Positions 4,393-36,868 of a DNA stretch of 64,000 nucleotides are shown in pieces; position 1 is the stretch's first letter, and each line of letters begins with the position of its first letter. Below the pieces are notes generated by a model. It did no database searches. It was given only the letters and a program-made list of their open reading frames with translations, and was not told the origin of the DNA. Location of the stretch: the NCBI RefSeq assembly GCF_000970305.1, contig NZ_CP009517.1, positions 372,001 to 436,000 on the forward strand, given 5' to 3'. This DNA is from Methanosarcina barkeri 3 (GTDB lineage Archaea; Halobacteriota; Methanosarcinia; Methanosarcinales; Methanosarcinaceae). Both the position numbers and the translations under genes were made by a program.

Positions 4393-5193
4393 TTACTCCA
4401 CTTCTTCCATAAATCCTATTGGGCCCCCTGCAAGTTTCACAAGCGCTTCGGCTTCAAGAAAATGCAGTTTTCCGGGAATTACAAGAATGTGGAGAGGCTT
4501 TCCAAAATTAAAGTCTTTAAGGTTTTCTGCATAATCTGCTTTTACGGTCGGTTTTTCCGAGCCTGCCCTGGCTATTCCTACTGCAGCAGCTCCTCGTATA
4601 ATTCCTTCTCCTCTTTTTTCCTCAACCTCAAGGAGAAGCTCAAGGGCAGTATTTACAGTCATATAGCCTTTTTCCTTATCTATATCCAGGAAAACCAGAG
4701 TATGCAGGCCAAGTTCCAGGTTTTGTTTTATAATATCATAAGGAGTTTCCGAGATTATCCTTGTACCTCTCCTGCTCTCATAGGGATGAGGAATACTTGC
4801 GGATTTCCCGAAGCGATAGTTCTGCAGTCCTGTAAGACCCGAGACAGCTGAGGCAATGGAAGCCCCATGAATCAGGCGAGTCTCTATTCCCAGTTTTTCA
4901 GCTCTCAGGCGTAAATCGACATGAGTTGTGGAGACCATTGTATCTCCACCAGTCAGGAAGCAAAGGTTCCTGTCCTTTGCTTTGTAGAGCCAGTCAGGAT
5001 GCTGCTCTACATCCTCTCTTGAAAGCAAAAAGACTTTCTTTCCGTAGAGCTCCTCCATTTTTTCAAGGTTCGTACCCATGAGACAGGAGGTATAAAACTC
5101 AGCATAAACCAGGTCGGCTACCCTGATAGCTTCAAGTCCCTTTAGAGAAATGTCATATTCGTCGAAAAGGCCCAGACCTATAAATGTAAGCAT
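4393..5193 (-). CDS. dphB: Diphthine synthase
   Basis: S-adenosylmethionine-dependent methyltransferase of diphthamide biosynthesis, which methylates the modified His of archaeal elongation factor 2. The N-terminus MLTFIGLGLFDEYDISLKGL is the conserved start of the family, so I place the start at 5193 rather than at 5250, where the frame opens. FLTGGDTMVSTTHVDLRLRAE, HGASIASAVSGLTGLQNYRFG and VIPGKLHFLEAEALVKLAGGP are further family motifs. The length of 266 residues is normal. With the Dph6-like gene it places two diphthamide genes within 4 kb. It diverges from the thioredoxin gene. Confidence 0.93.
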   Translation of the reverse strand: MLTFIGLGLFDEYDISLKGLEAIRVADLVYAEFYTSCLMGTNLEKMEELYGKKVFLLSREDVEQHPDWLYKAKDRNLCFLTGGDTMVSTTHVDLRLRAEKLGIETRLIHGASIASAVSGLTGLQNYRFGKSASIPHPYESRRGTRIISETPYDIIKQNLELGLHTLVFLDIDKEKGYMTVNTALELLLEVEEKRGEGIIRGAAAVGIARAGSEKPTVKADYAENLKDFNFGKPLHILVIPGKLHFLEAEALVKLAGGPIGFMEEVE

Positions 5194-5352
5194 AGCCCGC
5201 TTTAAGAGCCTTGCTGGTTTAAAGCTTTTTGTTTGAATATATCCAAGCAATAATAATGCTTTATTTTCTAGGTTTACTGGTACGCTTAACTTATTTATAT
5301 CTGGAAATTAATATTAGAATGGAATTATAACTGTAATTTTAGAGGGGATTTT

Positions 5353-5595
5353 ATGGTTAAAGTTACGCTTATTCACGCTAGCTGGTGTACTGCCTGTCCG
5401 GCAACTCGAAGACTCTGGAAAGACCTGAAATCCGAGTATGATTTTGAATACGAGGAAATAGATGTGGAAACTCCAGAGGGTCAGACGTTGATTGATAAAT
5501 ACGGCATAGCCGGAGTTCCTACGACTATTATTGATGGAAGGGTAGCTTTTGTAGGCCTTCCGAAAAAAGCCGATGCTATATCCCGTATTAGCTGA
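5353..5595 (+). CDS. Small thioredoxin/glutaredoxin-like protein
   Basis: An 80-residue thioredoxin-fold protein with the redox centre CTAC at residues 12-15 (ASWCTACP) and the cis-proline loop GVPTTIIDG. It is shorter than classical thioredoxins, like the small glutaredoxin-sized thioredoxins of methanogens. It should act as a cytosolic disulfide reductant. A thioredoxin reductase follows 59 bp downstream on the same strand, its obvious electron donor. A strong GAGGGGATTTT precedes the ATG. Confidence 0.88.
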   Translation: MVKVTLIHASWCTACPATRRLWKDLKSEYDFEYEEIDVETPEGQTLIDKYGIAGVPTTIIDGRVAFVGLPKKADAISRIS

Positions 5596-9626: not shown

Positions 9627-9829
9627 AGTAACCAGACCTCAGGTTTTTCCATATGAATCAAAGACCCAGAGCTAGAAGATGCCGTTAGTTGAAATTCCTT
9701 TCCGGAATCTTCAGGACTGGCGGCCAGAAGTTTTTCTTTTCTCTAAAGGTTTTTTTCATTTCTCCAAAAATTTACTTTTCTCCTGGTGCATCCGGCTTGC
9801 AGGTGTACAGCTTACAGGTTTATGGGATA

Positions 9830-9907
9830 CTGTCAAGTCTATGCTTGTTAAGGAATTTTCCAGCTACGATTGAACCTATAAGTGTTCATTCCTTGCCAAC
9901 TTGACAG
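9830..9907 (+). repeat. Hairpin repeat, copy A
   Basis: CTGTCAAGT (9830-9838) and ACTTGACAG (9899-9907) form inverted ends around a core reading TTTTCCAGCTAC and TTGAACCTATAA. The same core and ends recur at 11661-11748 (B), 11837-11912 (C, degraded) and, on the opposite strand, 36982-37056 (D). Copy A lies just past the 3' end of the HTH-array gene. The rest of 9627-9968 has no other feature I can support. Confidence 0.65.
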
Positions 9908-9968
9908 AATCCTATAATCTTAATGGACAAAATATAATTCGGTCGTTCTATAGCAATAACAAAAATAG

Positions 9969-11567
9969 TTACTTAATCTCTTTTCCAAGATAGTTTTCAA
10001 GGAATTCTGTATCGTAGAAAAGTGATTCCGAGTCAATTCGAGCCGGTTTTTTTTCTTTGAGGTTTGACAACTCAATATTGTGAGCATCAGTAACCATATC
10101 ATCATAGTCATTTGCAGGCAGTTTGTGGCTTTGACGCCATTTAGTAACATCGTGTTTCCTAACTTTGAGTATTTCGGCAATTTTACTATCCGATAATTTT
10201 AAATCATACAATTCACGCATTTTCCAGTGTCTTTTTCCACTGTTTGATGCAAGCCCGAGATAATGGCGTATTCTGAAGACAGCTGATTGAGAAATGCCTA
10301 TAGTTCTACCAATTTCGACATCGTTCATACCTTTCAGATATAGACGTTTAAACTCTTCAATATCAATGTTTTTTCGTCTAATCTGTCTTGGCTTTTGCCT
10401 GTATAGCCCTAAATTTCGGCGACGATTTGAGATTGTCCTTTCAGAAACATCAAAATATTTTGCAATCTCTGCATCACTAAAACCTTTAGTAAAAAGTTGT
10501 TTAAGTATATCTTTATTTGTTTTTTCCGTTGTGAATGTAAACACAATCGTGTTTTTCTTAATCTCCTTTTCCACAAAGTTTTCAATAGTTCCCGGATCAT
10601 AAGTAGATGACTCTGAGTTTGGTTGGATAGTTTCATTTTCATTAACATTTGACAACTTGGCTTCAAGAACAACACTAAGTGCACTATTCGACTTGTTTGG
10701 AGGAAGTCCGTGGTTTCGACGCCATGCAGCAACACTTTTCTTTTTTCCTTTTATTATTTTTGCGATTTGCCTGTCAGACATTCCTGCATTGTATAATTCT
10801 CTTTTCTTCTCGTTATGCCTTCCTTGATTGGGTGCAAGCGCAAAATGATGACGTATTTCTCTTATTAATTCACAATTTTGTATGCCAAGTGCTTCGGCTA
10901 TCCTTACATCACTCATGCCTTCAGCATATAGCTTTTTGAAATCATCTATATTTATGTTCTCAAACCAGGTTTGTTTCTGGCGTCGAAACAAACCCACATC
11001 ACGGCGTCTTTCATAAATAGTATGAGCACTAACACCGAAAATAGCTCCAATTTCCTTATCAGTAAGTCCTATGGTCAGGTAACGTATTAACTCCTCAGTG
11101 TTAACGTGTTTCCTACTTAATGGCTGTGGAGGTAACCCTAAATCGTGACGGATTTTCCTTGCTGTGTCAATGCATATGCCAAGAGAATTTCCTATCTTTC
11201 TGTCACTTAAACCTTCAGAATAAAGTTGCTTGAATTTTTCGATGTTATCAACTGTTTTTTCCCACTTCTTCCATCTTAATAAACCTAAACTTTGGCGATG
11301 TTTGAAGATTATATTATCACTTACGCCAAAAAATTTGCCAATTTCCTTGTCGTTAAGACCTTTTTCGAAAAGCTTTTTGAGTTCTTCATGGTCTATGATT
11401 ACTGCTACTGCAGTGTGACCACTGATTAGTGGCGACAACCCTAATTTACAGCGTATATTGCGTGCAGTAGCTTGAGAAAAGCCAAGATTATTAGCGATTT
11501 CTTTATCGGTCATTCCATTATCATGGAGTTTTTTGAATTCTTCCATATCGACGTTTAGTTTTCTCAA
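9969..11567 (-). CDS. Nine-unit helix-turn-helix array protein
   Basis: About 532 residues built almost only from about 38-residue units with the pattern FKKLY-x2-GMSD-x2-IA-x2-LG-(V/I)S-x3-(I/V)-x4-R-x2-LGL, the recognition-helix layout of Hin/resolvase-type HTHs. Counting from the upstream GTG, units lie near residues 9-47, 62-99, 111-148, 159-197, 209-247, 256-292, 354-392, 405-443 and 452-487. Units 4-5-6 plus linker and 7-8-9 plus linker are a duplication: the linkers share SES, YD, an EN(F/Y) and KEIK. No catalytic domain is visible. The GTG at 11576 overlaps GGAGGT, so I prefer the TTG at 11567 (7-nt spacing). Multi-site DNA binding is inferred. Confidence 0.8.
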   Translation of the reverse strand: MRKLNVDMEEFKKLHDNGMTDKEIANNLGFSQATARNIRCKLGLSPLISGHTAVAVIIDHEELKKLFEKGLNDKEIGKFFGVSDNIIFKHRQSLGLLRWKKWEKTVDNIEKFKQLYSEGLSDRKIGNSLGICIDTARKIRHDLGLPPQPLSRKHVNTEELIRYLTIGLTDKEIGAIFGVSAHTIYERRRDVGLFRRQKQTWFENINIDDFKKLYAEGMSDVRIAEALGIQNCELIREIRHHFALAPNQGRHNEKKRELYNAGMSDRQIAKIIKGKKKSVAAWRRNHGLPPNKSNSALSVVLEAKLSNVNENETIQPNSESSTYDPGTIENFVEKEIKKNTIVFTFTTEKTNKDILKQLFTKGFSDAEIAKYFDVSERTISNRRRNLGLYRQKPRQIRRKNIDIEEFKRLYLKGMNDVEIGRTIGISQSAVFRIRHYLGLASNSGKRHWKMRELYDLKLSDSKIAEILKVRKHDVTKWRQSHKLPANDYDDMVTDAHNIELSNLKEKKPARIDSESLFYDTEFLENYLGKEIK

Positions 11568-11660
11568 TCTGCACACCTCCGAAAACGAGTGACCATTTGC
11601 ATGGAAAAATCGGTCGTAGGAGTGAGGCTCAAAGCAGATTTCCTCTTATGGTTGGTGTAA

Positions 11661-11748
11661 CGATTCTGTCAAGGTGACGAGAGTTAAGAAATTTTCAACT
11701 GCTATTAAGCCTATAAAATGACCAACTCTCGTCACCTTGACAGAATCG
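11661..11748 (+). repeat. Hairpin repeat, copy B, with perfect 25-bp arms
   Basis: Arms 11661-11685 and 11724-11748 are exact reverse complements (CGATTCTGTCAAGG at the outer end) around a 38-nt loop containing TTTTCAACTGC and CCTATAAAATG. It lies about 90 bp upstream of the HTH-array start and has the same loop core as copy A beyond the gene's 3' end. If transcribed it would be a very stable stem. Confidence 0.8.
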
Positions 11749-11836
11749 ATATACAAATTATTTATATTATATGTTAGGAAATCTACTTCCTTTTTCTGAC
11801 ATATTCATATAAAAGTTTATCTATTACTGGTTATAT

Positions 11837-11912
11837 CGATCTGGTGAGGAATCAGAATTTCAGTTACTACTGAATCTATAAAATATCCAATCCTTGTCAA
11901 CTTGGTAAAGCA
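11837..11912 (+). repeat. Hairpin repeat, copy C (degraded)
   Basis: The core GAATTTCAGTTACTAC, then TGAATCTATAAAATATCC and CTTGTCAACTTGG, aligns with copies A and B, but the left arm no longer pairs well. It is probably an older copy. Confidence 0.5.
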
Positions 11913-11983
11913 CGATTTAGGGTTTCTACAAAGTTAAGTTTTGCAAAGCAAATCCTTAACATTTCAGGAAAATATCTGATTTT

Positions 11984-12178
11984 GTAACTATTCAGCCAGT
12001 TTAAAAACGTCCGTTGATATCGATTCTAACGGAATATAAATATCTAATAAATAACTCACATGCGATGAAAAAACACAGTCAATTACCGATAATCAGAAAA
12101 ATCCATTTGCAGAAATTTATCTGTCGAGTATTAATAAATGTGTTTATTGATGCTGTTTTACGTAGACTGAAAAGTTAC
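11984..12178 (-). mobile_element. MITE-like element, old copy (195 bp)
   Basis: The left end GTAACTATTCAGCC (11984-11997) is identical to the terminal repeat of the element at 36672-36868. The right end GACTGAAAAGTTAC (12165-12178) differs from its complement at two positions. Internal segments such as TATTGATGCTGTTTTA match the other copy in reverse orientation. I find no clear target duplication here, as expected for an old insertion. The frame at 12014-12211 overlaps it and is not a real gene. The rest of 11749-12521 is AT-rich spacer. Confidence 0.65.
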
Positions 12179-12521
12179 TTAACTTTTAAAAATTGTTCAT
12201 CTCTTCAATGATATAGCTACGGTGTTATATATGACATTTTTTACCTAACTTTAATTTCATACAGTTAAATAGGTCGCTAAATTATACAATTATAAATATT
12301 TAAATGTTGTTTACTGAAAAAATATTTTACTCGTGGATATTATTTGTTCAGAACCATTTTTTCATATAATTAACTATAAATAAATTTAGTAACTATTCTA
12401 GTTTGTAAACTAAAGGATATAGTCAAGTTTACTGGAGTTAGGCATTTCTTAGATTCAGATGCAGTTGTAAAAGTATGTTAATCTTAGTAAACTTTACTGA
12501 ATCATTTGGAGACATATCTAT

Positions 12522-17254: not shown

Positions 17255-17656
17255 TTAGTCATTGCTCGGAGTTATTCTGATCACTCTTCCTTCCTCGCTT
17301 GTATCATTTCTAGCTGGAGTTTCCATAGTTCTAGCTGGAGTTTCCATAGTTCTAGCTGGAGTTTCTTCTCCAGTTACAGTATTTTCCTCAGCCGGAGTCA
17401 CTACCACAACTGGAGTTACTGCTACAACTGGAGTTTCTGCTACTACTTCTTCAACTGGAGTTACAACTTCAACTTCAGTTACAGCTTCAACTTCAGTTAC
17501 AACCTGTGCTGGAGTGCCTGCTTGTGCTGGAGTTATATCTTCTACTTCCTCAGCTGGAGTTCCTGTTAGGTTTGGAGTTTCCTCTCTCTGACCGGTGCAT
17601 CCTATTGCAAGGAATATGCCGAACATGACTATCAATATAACAAGTGCTTTTCTCAT
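17255..17656 (-). CDS. Thr/Pro/Val-repeat lipoprotein
   Basis: About 133 residues with signal MRKALVILIVMFGIFLAIGC, the lipobox Cys ending it. The mature part is low-complexity: EAVTEVEVVTPVEEVVAETP, then repeated TP-rich units including a direct duplicate of ETPARTM. The first 100 residues closely match the lipoprotein at 18335, while the C-terminal tails differ. It has no recognisable catalytic domain and is probably a cell-envelope stalk or spacer protein. GGGGGAAAGT before the ATG at 17656 decides the start over the GTG at 17668. Confidence 0.7.
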   Translation of the reverse strand: MRKALVILIVMFGIFLAIGCTGQREETPNLTGTPAEEVEDITPAQAGTPAQVVTEVEAVTEVEVVTPVEEVVAETPVVAVTPVVVVTPAEENTVTGEETPARTMETPARTMETPARNDTSEEGRVIRITPSND

Positions 17657-17963
17657 ACTTTCCCCCACTTAAATTATGTGTTTTATAAAAGATGCTTTAT
17701 AATTGATATTGAAGTTTTATAACAATTACTACTAGATTCTGAACATAATTCCTCTTATGATCTGTTCATTCTAGTGCTTAATTTCTTTGAGATTAGAGAT
17801 CTTCCGCTAACTTAACACTCTTTTTCTATTCTAATTCATTTTCTTCATTATCCAAAAATAGAGTTTATAAAAGTAAGACTGCAGAAAAGCAGATAAAATA
17901 TTGATAATATGTAAGATAACTAATATAAGCTGATTTACAGGAAATCTGTATTGATCTTACTTC

Positions 17964-18334: not shown

Positions 18335-18769
18335 TTAGGAACCCTTGCTGGGAGTCATTTTAATTACTCTGCCTTCGCTGGTGTTATTTCCAGATTGGGT
18401 GTTCTCCAGAATACGTTCCTTCTTTCTTTGAGTACTACTCACATGTTTAGTTACATTTTGAGTAGTATTTGCGTTTTGGTTTTCAGTTACAGTATTTTCC
18501 TCAGCCGGAGTCACTGCCACAACTGGAGTTTCTGCTACAACTGGAGTTTCTGCTACTACTTCTTCAACTGGAGTTACAACTTCAACTTCAGTTACAGCTT
18601 CAACTGGAGTTACAACCTGTGCTGGAGTGCCTGCTTGTGCTGGAGTTATATCTTCTACTTCCTCAGCTGGAGTTCCTGTTAGGTTTGGAGCTTCCTCTCT
18701 CTGACCGGTGCATCCTACTGCAAGGAACACACCGAACAGTAATATCAAAATAATCAACATTTTTTTCAT
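18335..18769 (-). CDS. Thr/Pro/Val-repeat lipoprotein, paralogue
   Basis: About 144 residues with signal MKKMLIILILLFGVFLAVGC and a mature Thr/Pro/Glu/Val region nearly identical to that of the protein at 17255 (LTGTPAEEVEDITPAQAG). The C-terminus differs: an Asn/Thr/Lys-rich segment (ENQNANTTQNVTKHVSS) replaces the ETPARTM units. No catalytic domain is seen, so an envelope-anchored spacer protein is likely. GGGGGAAAAT sets the ATG at 18769 as start. The two genes look like a tandem duplication that diverged by repeat gain and loss. Confidence 0.68.
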   Translation of the reverse strand: MKKMLIILILLFGVFLAVGCTGQREEAPNLTGTPAEEVEDITPAQAGTPAQVVTPVEAVTEVEVVTPVEEVVAETPVVAETPVVAVTPAEENTVTENQNANTTQNVTKHVSSTQRKKERILENTQSGNNTSEGRVIKMTPSKGS

Positions 18770-19033
18770 ATTTTCCCCCACTTATAATTATGTCCGTTAT
18801 TAGTTGACACTTTATAATTGATGTTTGGATCTTATAATAATTACGACTAGGTTCTGAACATAATTCATCGTACAGGATTAAGGATGGTTATATATCCACA
18901 TCTGTTTATTTTAAACACTTATGAATGTATGTAAAATCCGGAATCTTTATTTTCTGCTTAATTTCCTTAAATTATAATACTGGAAATTCCAATATTGTTA
19001 AATGATTTTTTAATGACTTTTTGGGGGGAAGTC

Positions 19034-36516: not shown

Positions 36517-36675
36517 GTGCGCAATTACGTATATCATGGCATCTTGTCAGAATGCGATCTTTACTATTACAAACGGCATAGGGATGGATTCCCATGTTCA
36601 ACTTGCACACGCAGTCCGTTGAGTCAAGAAAATATATTCCAAAAACTCAGTGAAATTAGACAATGTCATTTGTAA
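36517..36675 (+). CDS. Small CxxC-containing ORF cut short by a MITE
   Basis: A GTG start with AAAGGAGTAGAGAAC upstream opens a 52-codon frame (MRNYVYHGILSECDLYYYKR, then a segment with FPCSTCTRS and a C-terminal IRQCHL). Its stop TAA lies inside the terminal repeat of the MITE at 36672. Joining the two copies of the target duplication would restore a frame ending about 11 codons later (CHFLLLFFFCGMAN). It may be a small zinc-binding protein; I recognise no family, and it could be inactive. Confidence 0.45.
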   Translation: MRNYVYHGILSECDLYYYKRHRDGFPCSTCTRSPLSQENIFQKLSEIRQCHL

Positions 36676-36868
36676 CTATTCAGCCTATTTAAAACAGCAT
36701 CAATAGCCGTCTTTACTAAAGTTCAATTGACAAATTTCTGTAACTTGATTTTCTTGTACTGTAGCCGATTGAGTGCGTTTCTTCCTTTTCCGGATATTAT
36801 TTTTTTGGATTCCACTATTTTATTATAATCAATATCAATAGGCACGTTTTGATGGGCTGAATAGTTAC
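36672..36868 (+). mobile_element. MITE-like element, 197 bp, intact with 8-bp target duplication
   Basis: Perfect 14-bp terminal inverted repeats GTAACTATTCAGCC (36672-36685) and GGCTGAATAGTTAC (36855-36868), flanked on both sides by TGTCATTT (36664-36671 and 36869-36876). It has no transposase. Ends beginning GTAA and 8-bp duplications are features I associate with IS66-family elements, so it is probably moved by such a transposase encoded elsewhere. An older copy lies at 11984-12178. The frame at 36723-36908 is not a gene. Confidence 0.85.

Follow-up and report, generated by a model that had tools for sequence, protein, structure and literature searches.

Helix-turn-helix (HTH) domains usually work two at a time, as dimers or pairs. 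Tandem arrays of such domains are already known and little studied, and the nine-unit cellular protein described here is an unusually long example of them. By sequence and fold, its closest characterised relatives are the archaeal CRISPR-repeat-binding proteins Cbp1 and Cbp2, which are known from Crenarchaeota, whereas the present protein comes from Methanosarcina. Like the nine-HTH protein, Cbp1 and Cbp2 consist of tandem homeodomain-like HTHs with short linkers and without a catalytic domain; however, Cbp1 has three HTHs and Cbp2 two, against nine here, and Cbp1 comprises about 135 amino acids, against 532. It is a trait of the Cbp1 family to work with the chromatin protein Cren7. The three HTHs of Cbp1 are arranged along the CRISPR repeat in order, 5′ to 3′ (PMC10883916).

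Other tandem arrays occur in a phage, a plasmid and an archaeal virus. ORF18 of Bacillus phage PM1, a phage gene without an assigned function and without a match to the Cbp1 model, encodes seven tandem HTHs, which recur every 50 residues or so, and, like the nine-HTH protein, no other domain. A Streptomyces plasmid protein contains five tandem HTH units. In gp23 of the haloarchaeal virus HJTV-4, four tandem units are followed by a C-terminal HNH-like Cys/His nuclease domain (recognised by eye), in contrast to nine HTHs without a nuclease here. The unit counts of these three proteins were obtained by eye from the translations. The HJTV-4 gene (L123, 2920–3894) is annotated merely as hypothetical. 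A preliminary description of the present locus had stated that HTHs of this kind usually occur singly, a statement to be corrected in the light of these arrays and of Cbp1/Cbp2.

The gene for the nine-HTH protein is located in a window of 64,000 nucleotides, the whole stretch of DNA that was analysed. The host genome is a single contig of 4.56 Mb, in which the gene is single-copy. The TTG at 11567 is the likeliest start codon; all five orthologues keep it together with the Shine-Dalgarno-like sequence ahead of it, AGGTGYGCAGA. A GTG at 11576, which is in frame and overlaps this sequence, is a less likely start. The protein is basic (pI 9.6), and its parts are as follows.

9969–11567, minus strand: gene of the nine-HTH protein, 532 aa, TTG start; dN/dS 0.20–0.41 between orthologues
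11436–11552, minus strand: HTH unit 1, subtype B; unit profile match, AlphaFold2 helices
11280–11396, minus strand: HTH unit 2, subtype A; unit profile match, AlphaFold2 helices
11133–11246, minus strand: HTH unit 3, subtype B; unit profile match, AlphaFold2 helices
10989–11105, minus strand: HTH unit 4, subtype A; unit profile match, AlphaFold2 helices
10842–10955, minus strand: HTH unit 5, subtype B; the least conserved of the units, with one residue inserted into its turn
10704–10814, minus strand: HTH unit 6, subtype C; unit profile match, AlphaFold2 helices
10518–10703, minus strand: acidic linker 1; words SES, YD and KEIK, low-confidence helices
10404–10517, minus strand: HTH unit 7, subtype A; unit profile match, AlphaFold2 helices
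10251–10367, minus strand: HTH unit 8, subtype B; unit profile match, AlphaFold2 helices
10119–10229, minus strand: HTH unit 9, subtype C; unit profile match, AlphaFold2 helices
9972–10118, minus strand: acidic C-terminal tail; duplicate of linker 1, shortened in two distant orthologues

Nine tri-helical HTH units were found in the protein, and no further domain was recognised. Pfam HTH_23 matched seven separate stretches (E 9e-30; 102 bits against a gathering score of 24.6), and the AlphaFold2 models of four orthologues contain nine successive helix triplets, with a pLDDT of about 70–87 in most units. By both the gathering score and the three-helix fold, the protein belongs to the homeodomain-like HTHs (HTH_23 and related families). 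Further Pfam matches were HTH_7 (E 1.2e-15), GcrA, HTH_38 and other homeodomain-like families, and the solved HTH of gamma-delta resolvase was a weak match. The preliminary description had counted nine units, likened them to Hin/resolvase-type HTHs and named a Pfam profile search and structure prediction as ways of checking them; the HTH family matches and the three-helix triplets bear out the HTH identity and the count, and HTH_7 and the resolvase match bear out the likeness. It had also held that the protein contains nothing else, which is correct for recognised domains, but outside the units lie a linker and a tail segment, both short (about 58 and 46 aa) and acidic, with helices predicted at low confidence. 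The connectors between the triplets were likewise of low confidence (mean 63, pTM 0.24), and because of this pTM the model fixes no arrangement of the units, either overall or on DNA.

At the level of the single unit, the protein thus resembles the HTH of resolvases and invertases (PF02796, gamma-delta resolvase). It differs from a serine recombinase in having many units, and no catalytic domain, of the resolvase type or otherwise, was present among the best 25 of its 46 Pfam matches. It is not a member of the serine recombinases, because the units and linkers leave no room for a catalytic domain. A search of a defence-system library yielded generic HTH matches only. One match, 8vd6 ('CAP repeat'), was set aside as the entry of a protein-design paper (PMC12339374).

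The units also record how the array was assembled. In a tree of 36 units from four orthologues, subtype A comprises units 2, 4 and 7, subtype B units 1, 3, 5 and 8, and subtype C units 6 and 9; the order along the protein is B-A-B-A-B-C-linker-A-B-C-linker. Units 4–6 with their linker and units 7–9 with theirs share 75 identities over 181 positions (41%), with a score of 347 against 33±5 for shuffled sequences (maximum 50). When the linkers were aligned alone, the score was 74 against 23±5, a value reached by none of 1000 shuffles. The three-unit segments scored 280 in register and 176–195 in the wrong register. The paired units of the two blocks are 44–45% identical, and unit 6 is 45% identical to unit 9 but at most 31% to every other unit. 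The two blocks are therefore a true duplication. On the subtype order and the duplication of three units plus linker, the preliminary description was right in every checkable detail. The array may have grown by stepwise internal duplication, from B through A-B to A-B-C plus linker, the last of which would have been doubled.

Six of the 31 Methanosarcina genomes carry the gene, two as an intact copy, two without the last tail, one broken and one as a remnant. The closest orthologue is that of Methanosarcina spelaei (92–93%). Another, from a Methanosarcina MAG (91%), is broken by two TGA codons, and in two more distant Methanosarcina orthologues (60–63%) the last tail is removed by a TAA codon or a frameshift. 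The other Methanosarcina of the 31 genomes, the remaining family members searched and 295 sampled genomes of the phylum yielded no nine-unit protein; in the phylum sample, a profile search gave the host and one weak match (G335). Short relatives with one to three units were found in four genomes (G080, G081, G084 and G093). Those of G080 (L038, about 5091–5489) and G084 (L039, about 1173–1463) have two to three units; both are apparently broken by frameshifts or stops, and a similar gene for a surface-type protein lies near each. A Cbp1-like match at host position 1768913 was rejected as a second array, as the matched stretch contains a stop and the ORF is an ordinary HTH protein of 84 aa.

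The pairwise dN/dS values among orthologues (0.20–0.41) indicate that the gene is under purifying selection. Between the host and the 60–63% orthologues, the recognition helices are 80–90% identical in units 3, 4, 6, 7 and 8, 64–73% in unit 1, 60% in unit 9, 40–60% in unit 5 and 36% in unit 2; different units within one protein are about 20–50% identical. From the dN/dS values and the conservation of the helices unit by unit, it follows that the protein is, or formerly was, in use. The helix comparison suggests that most units read something particular, but perhaps not all nine, since conservation of this helix is poor in units 2 and 5 and, in part, in unit 9. The gene is dispensable, as judged from the loss of the tail or breakage in several genomes and from its presence in only 6 of the 31.

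The surroundings of the gene contain the following features.

About 9794–12262, no strand: stretch missing from the empty-site genome G104; holds the nine-HTH gene and the hairpins
11784–11805, minus strand: 22-nt element AATATGTCAGAAAAAGGAAGTA, candidate promoter or auto-operator; adjoins a TATA-like stretch
11652–11757, no strand: hairpin element with 34-nt arms, lying in the leader after the 22-nt element and ahead of the start codon; belongs to a genus-wide dispersed family and is not specific to the nine-HTH gene
9820–9917, no strand: second hairpin element of the same dispersed family, downstream of the nine-HTH gene

Homology with G104 breaks off at about 9794 and resumes at about 12262, and about 2.5 kb is thus either extra in the host or was lost in G104. 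Close relatives without the gene have different sequence after the conserved TPR gene. In two of the orthologue carriers, G091 and G076, the gene is found at other loci, and it has therefore moved; neither a target-site duplication nor a transposase of its own was observed at the gene. The neighbourhoods in G091 and G076 contain amtB and PII genes. A common amtB/PII neighbourhood was nevertheless rejected, as the gene order differs and the PII genes look by eye like different paralogues.

The upstream regions of the host and G091 align only beside the start codon and in one further place, a shared 22-nt block (AATATRTCAGAAAAAGGAAGTA, E 5e-5) that closely follows the TATA-like AAACTTTTATAT. With zero or one mismatch, this element was found in the 31 genomes only upstream of the nine-HTH gene (host, G091 and G102), and with two mismatches it precedes the G100 orthologue; two unrelated loci also appear at two mismatches, the same count as for the reversed-pattern control. 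It is thus present upstream of four orthologues at two unrelated genomic locations, while it was not found upstream of the G076 orthologue. The element is a candidate for a promoter part, an auto-operator or both, and a lead suggested by its sequence conservation; it may be only a promoter.

On this evidence, we give about an even chance to the reading that the protein is a non-enzymatic, sequence-specific DNA-binding array that recognises one long composite site and acts at few places in the genome. The recognition helix of each unit would enter the major groove, and flexible connectors of 10–15 residues would allow successive units to track along one duplex, as Cbp1 does on the CRISPR repeat. 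If each unit covers about 8 bp, as for Cbp1, the array would read one composite site of about 70 bp. A specific composite target, not a simple repeat, is probable because the helices differ between units and are kept per unit between orthologues. The likeliest role would be regulation or a local organisation of chromatin at a small number of sites. The best candidate among these would be the promoter of the gene itself, where the conserved 22-nt element closely follows the TATA-like box. We thus infer DNA binding, the length of the footprint and autoregulation. The earlier suggestion that the array contacts a long DNA target accords, as a prediction, with the HTH family matches and the nine AlphaFold2 triplets. 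A further step, which we regard as unlikely, is that the protein is a natural modular DNA reader, whose nine diversified HTHs would specify a single site of about 70 bp, occurring once per genome in its own promoter; if true, it would be a natural analogue, made from HTHs, of engineered zinc-finger or TALE arrays. Nine diverged recognition helices, conserved unit by unit, would allow one to test on a natural protein whether long DNA can be read by HTHs joined in series. Such an array would extend the Cbp1/Cbp2 design beyond CRISPR, and the 22-nt element provides a concrete first DNA probe.

The relationship to Cbp1 and Cbp2 raises another reading, namely a long protein of this type that coats CRISPR repeats, its nine units spanning at least one repeat and aiding the transcription of long arrays. 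The nearest solved natural relative is a CRISPR-repeat-binding protein, 2lvs (phmmer E 0.0036; Foldseek probability 0.97 but E 0.23), and the host has a long CRISPR array, of which a single 13-kb stretch contains at least 69 copies of the repeat. The top NCBIfam match is indeed Cbp1 (NF040595; E 8.9e-17), but its 61.3 bits are far below the curated cut-off of 140 bits; when this model was applied to 14 control genomes, M. jannaschii and Sulfolobus acidocaldarius matched, and one passed the cut-off. By score and by unit number, the nine-HTH protein is not a Cbp1. Its gene is not adjacent to cas genes, and it follows neither cas1 nor the repeat type: cas1 is present in 26 of the 31 genomes against 6 for the nine-HTH gene, and was not found in the carrier G091 at 92% completeness; the host and M. 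spelaei have the same repeat type, while the carrier G076 has an unrelated one, also present in G096 and G099, which lack the gene. Co-occurrence with cas1 and repeat type thus lends no support to the binding of CRISPR repeats, and the reading is very improbable. The repeat of a long CRISPR array at 3732000–3745000 of the host genome (L119) contains TTCGTGAGCAAGATCCATTAAAACAAGGATTGAAAC. Just as improbable, in our view, is a protein that bridges the nucleoid or compacts DNA in general, with units that attach at many sites and with little specificity: many basic HTH units, flexibly joined and with acidic linkers, would suit such a role, but the different recognition helices conserved per unit point to specific reading, and a gene carried by few genomes does not encode a core chromatin protein.

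A viral origin of the protein is plausible, and it is possible, though doubtful, that a virus or plasmid was the source of this DNA-binding protein, which would be of the D5-like or another multi-HTH phage type, temporarily chromosomal and possibly a silencer of related invaders. PM1 ORF18, of the same architecture, aligned over 90% of the query (E 6e-14, 24% identity); phrog_12058 matched in three stretches (E 1.2e-41) and the D5-like phrog_323 at E 3.7e-23, and 27 viral structure matches were obtained at E ≤ 0.001. The profile match to the type of phrog_12058 and PM1 ORF18 extends over several successive units, a likeness in type that may or may not reflect orthology. The patchy occurrence of the gene, at different loci and decaying in some genomes, would also fit this origin. 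However, no viral or plasmid gene was found above about 30% identity, no integrase or other viral gene lies beside the nine-HTH gene, and the viral matches may reflect just the common HTH fold. The viral contigs searched contained no relative of the nine-unit proteins, and for ORF18 only phage PM1 itself; in the unit alignment, conservation was nowhere sufficient for such a search. The hairpins bear on the remaining reading, in which the protein binds them or forms a mobile unit with them, as the preliminary description had suggested in linking the two. The elements, of about 100 bp, belong to a low-copy dispersed Methanosarcina family, which is MITE-like, with GATTCTGTCAAG-like ends, and also occurs at about 11858–11915. 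In three close species, the gene is flanked by two hairpins and by a further copy, which is degenerate. However, none was found up to 700 bp from the gene in two of the five orthologue genomes, G091 and G076, and of the nine Methanosarcina genomes of the sample that have the family, five lack the gene (G075, G087, G088, G095 and G097). In addition, the leader hairpin is placed as would be expected of a later insertion. The suggested link therefore fails; the hairpins are probably not the partner of the protein, and this reading is extremely unlikely. Other repeats in the window are two 300-nt direct repeats (17362–17661 and 18475–18774; 92% identical) and an 81-nt inverted repeat pair (12098–12178 and 36672–36752; 75% complementary), whose members are 24 kb apart.
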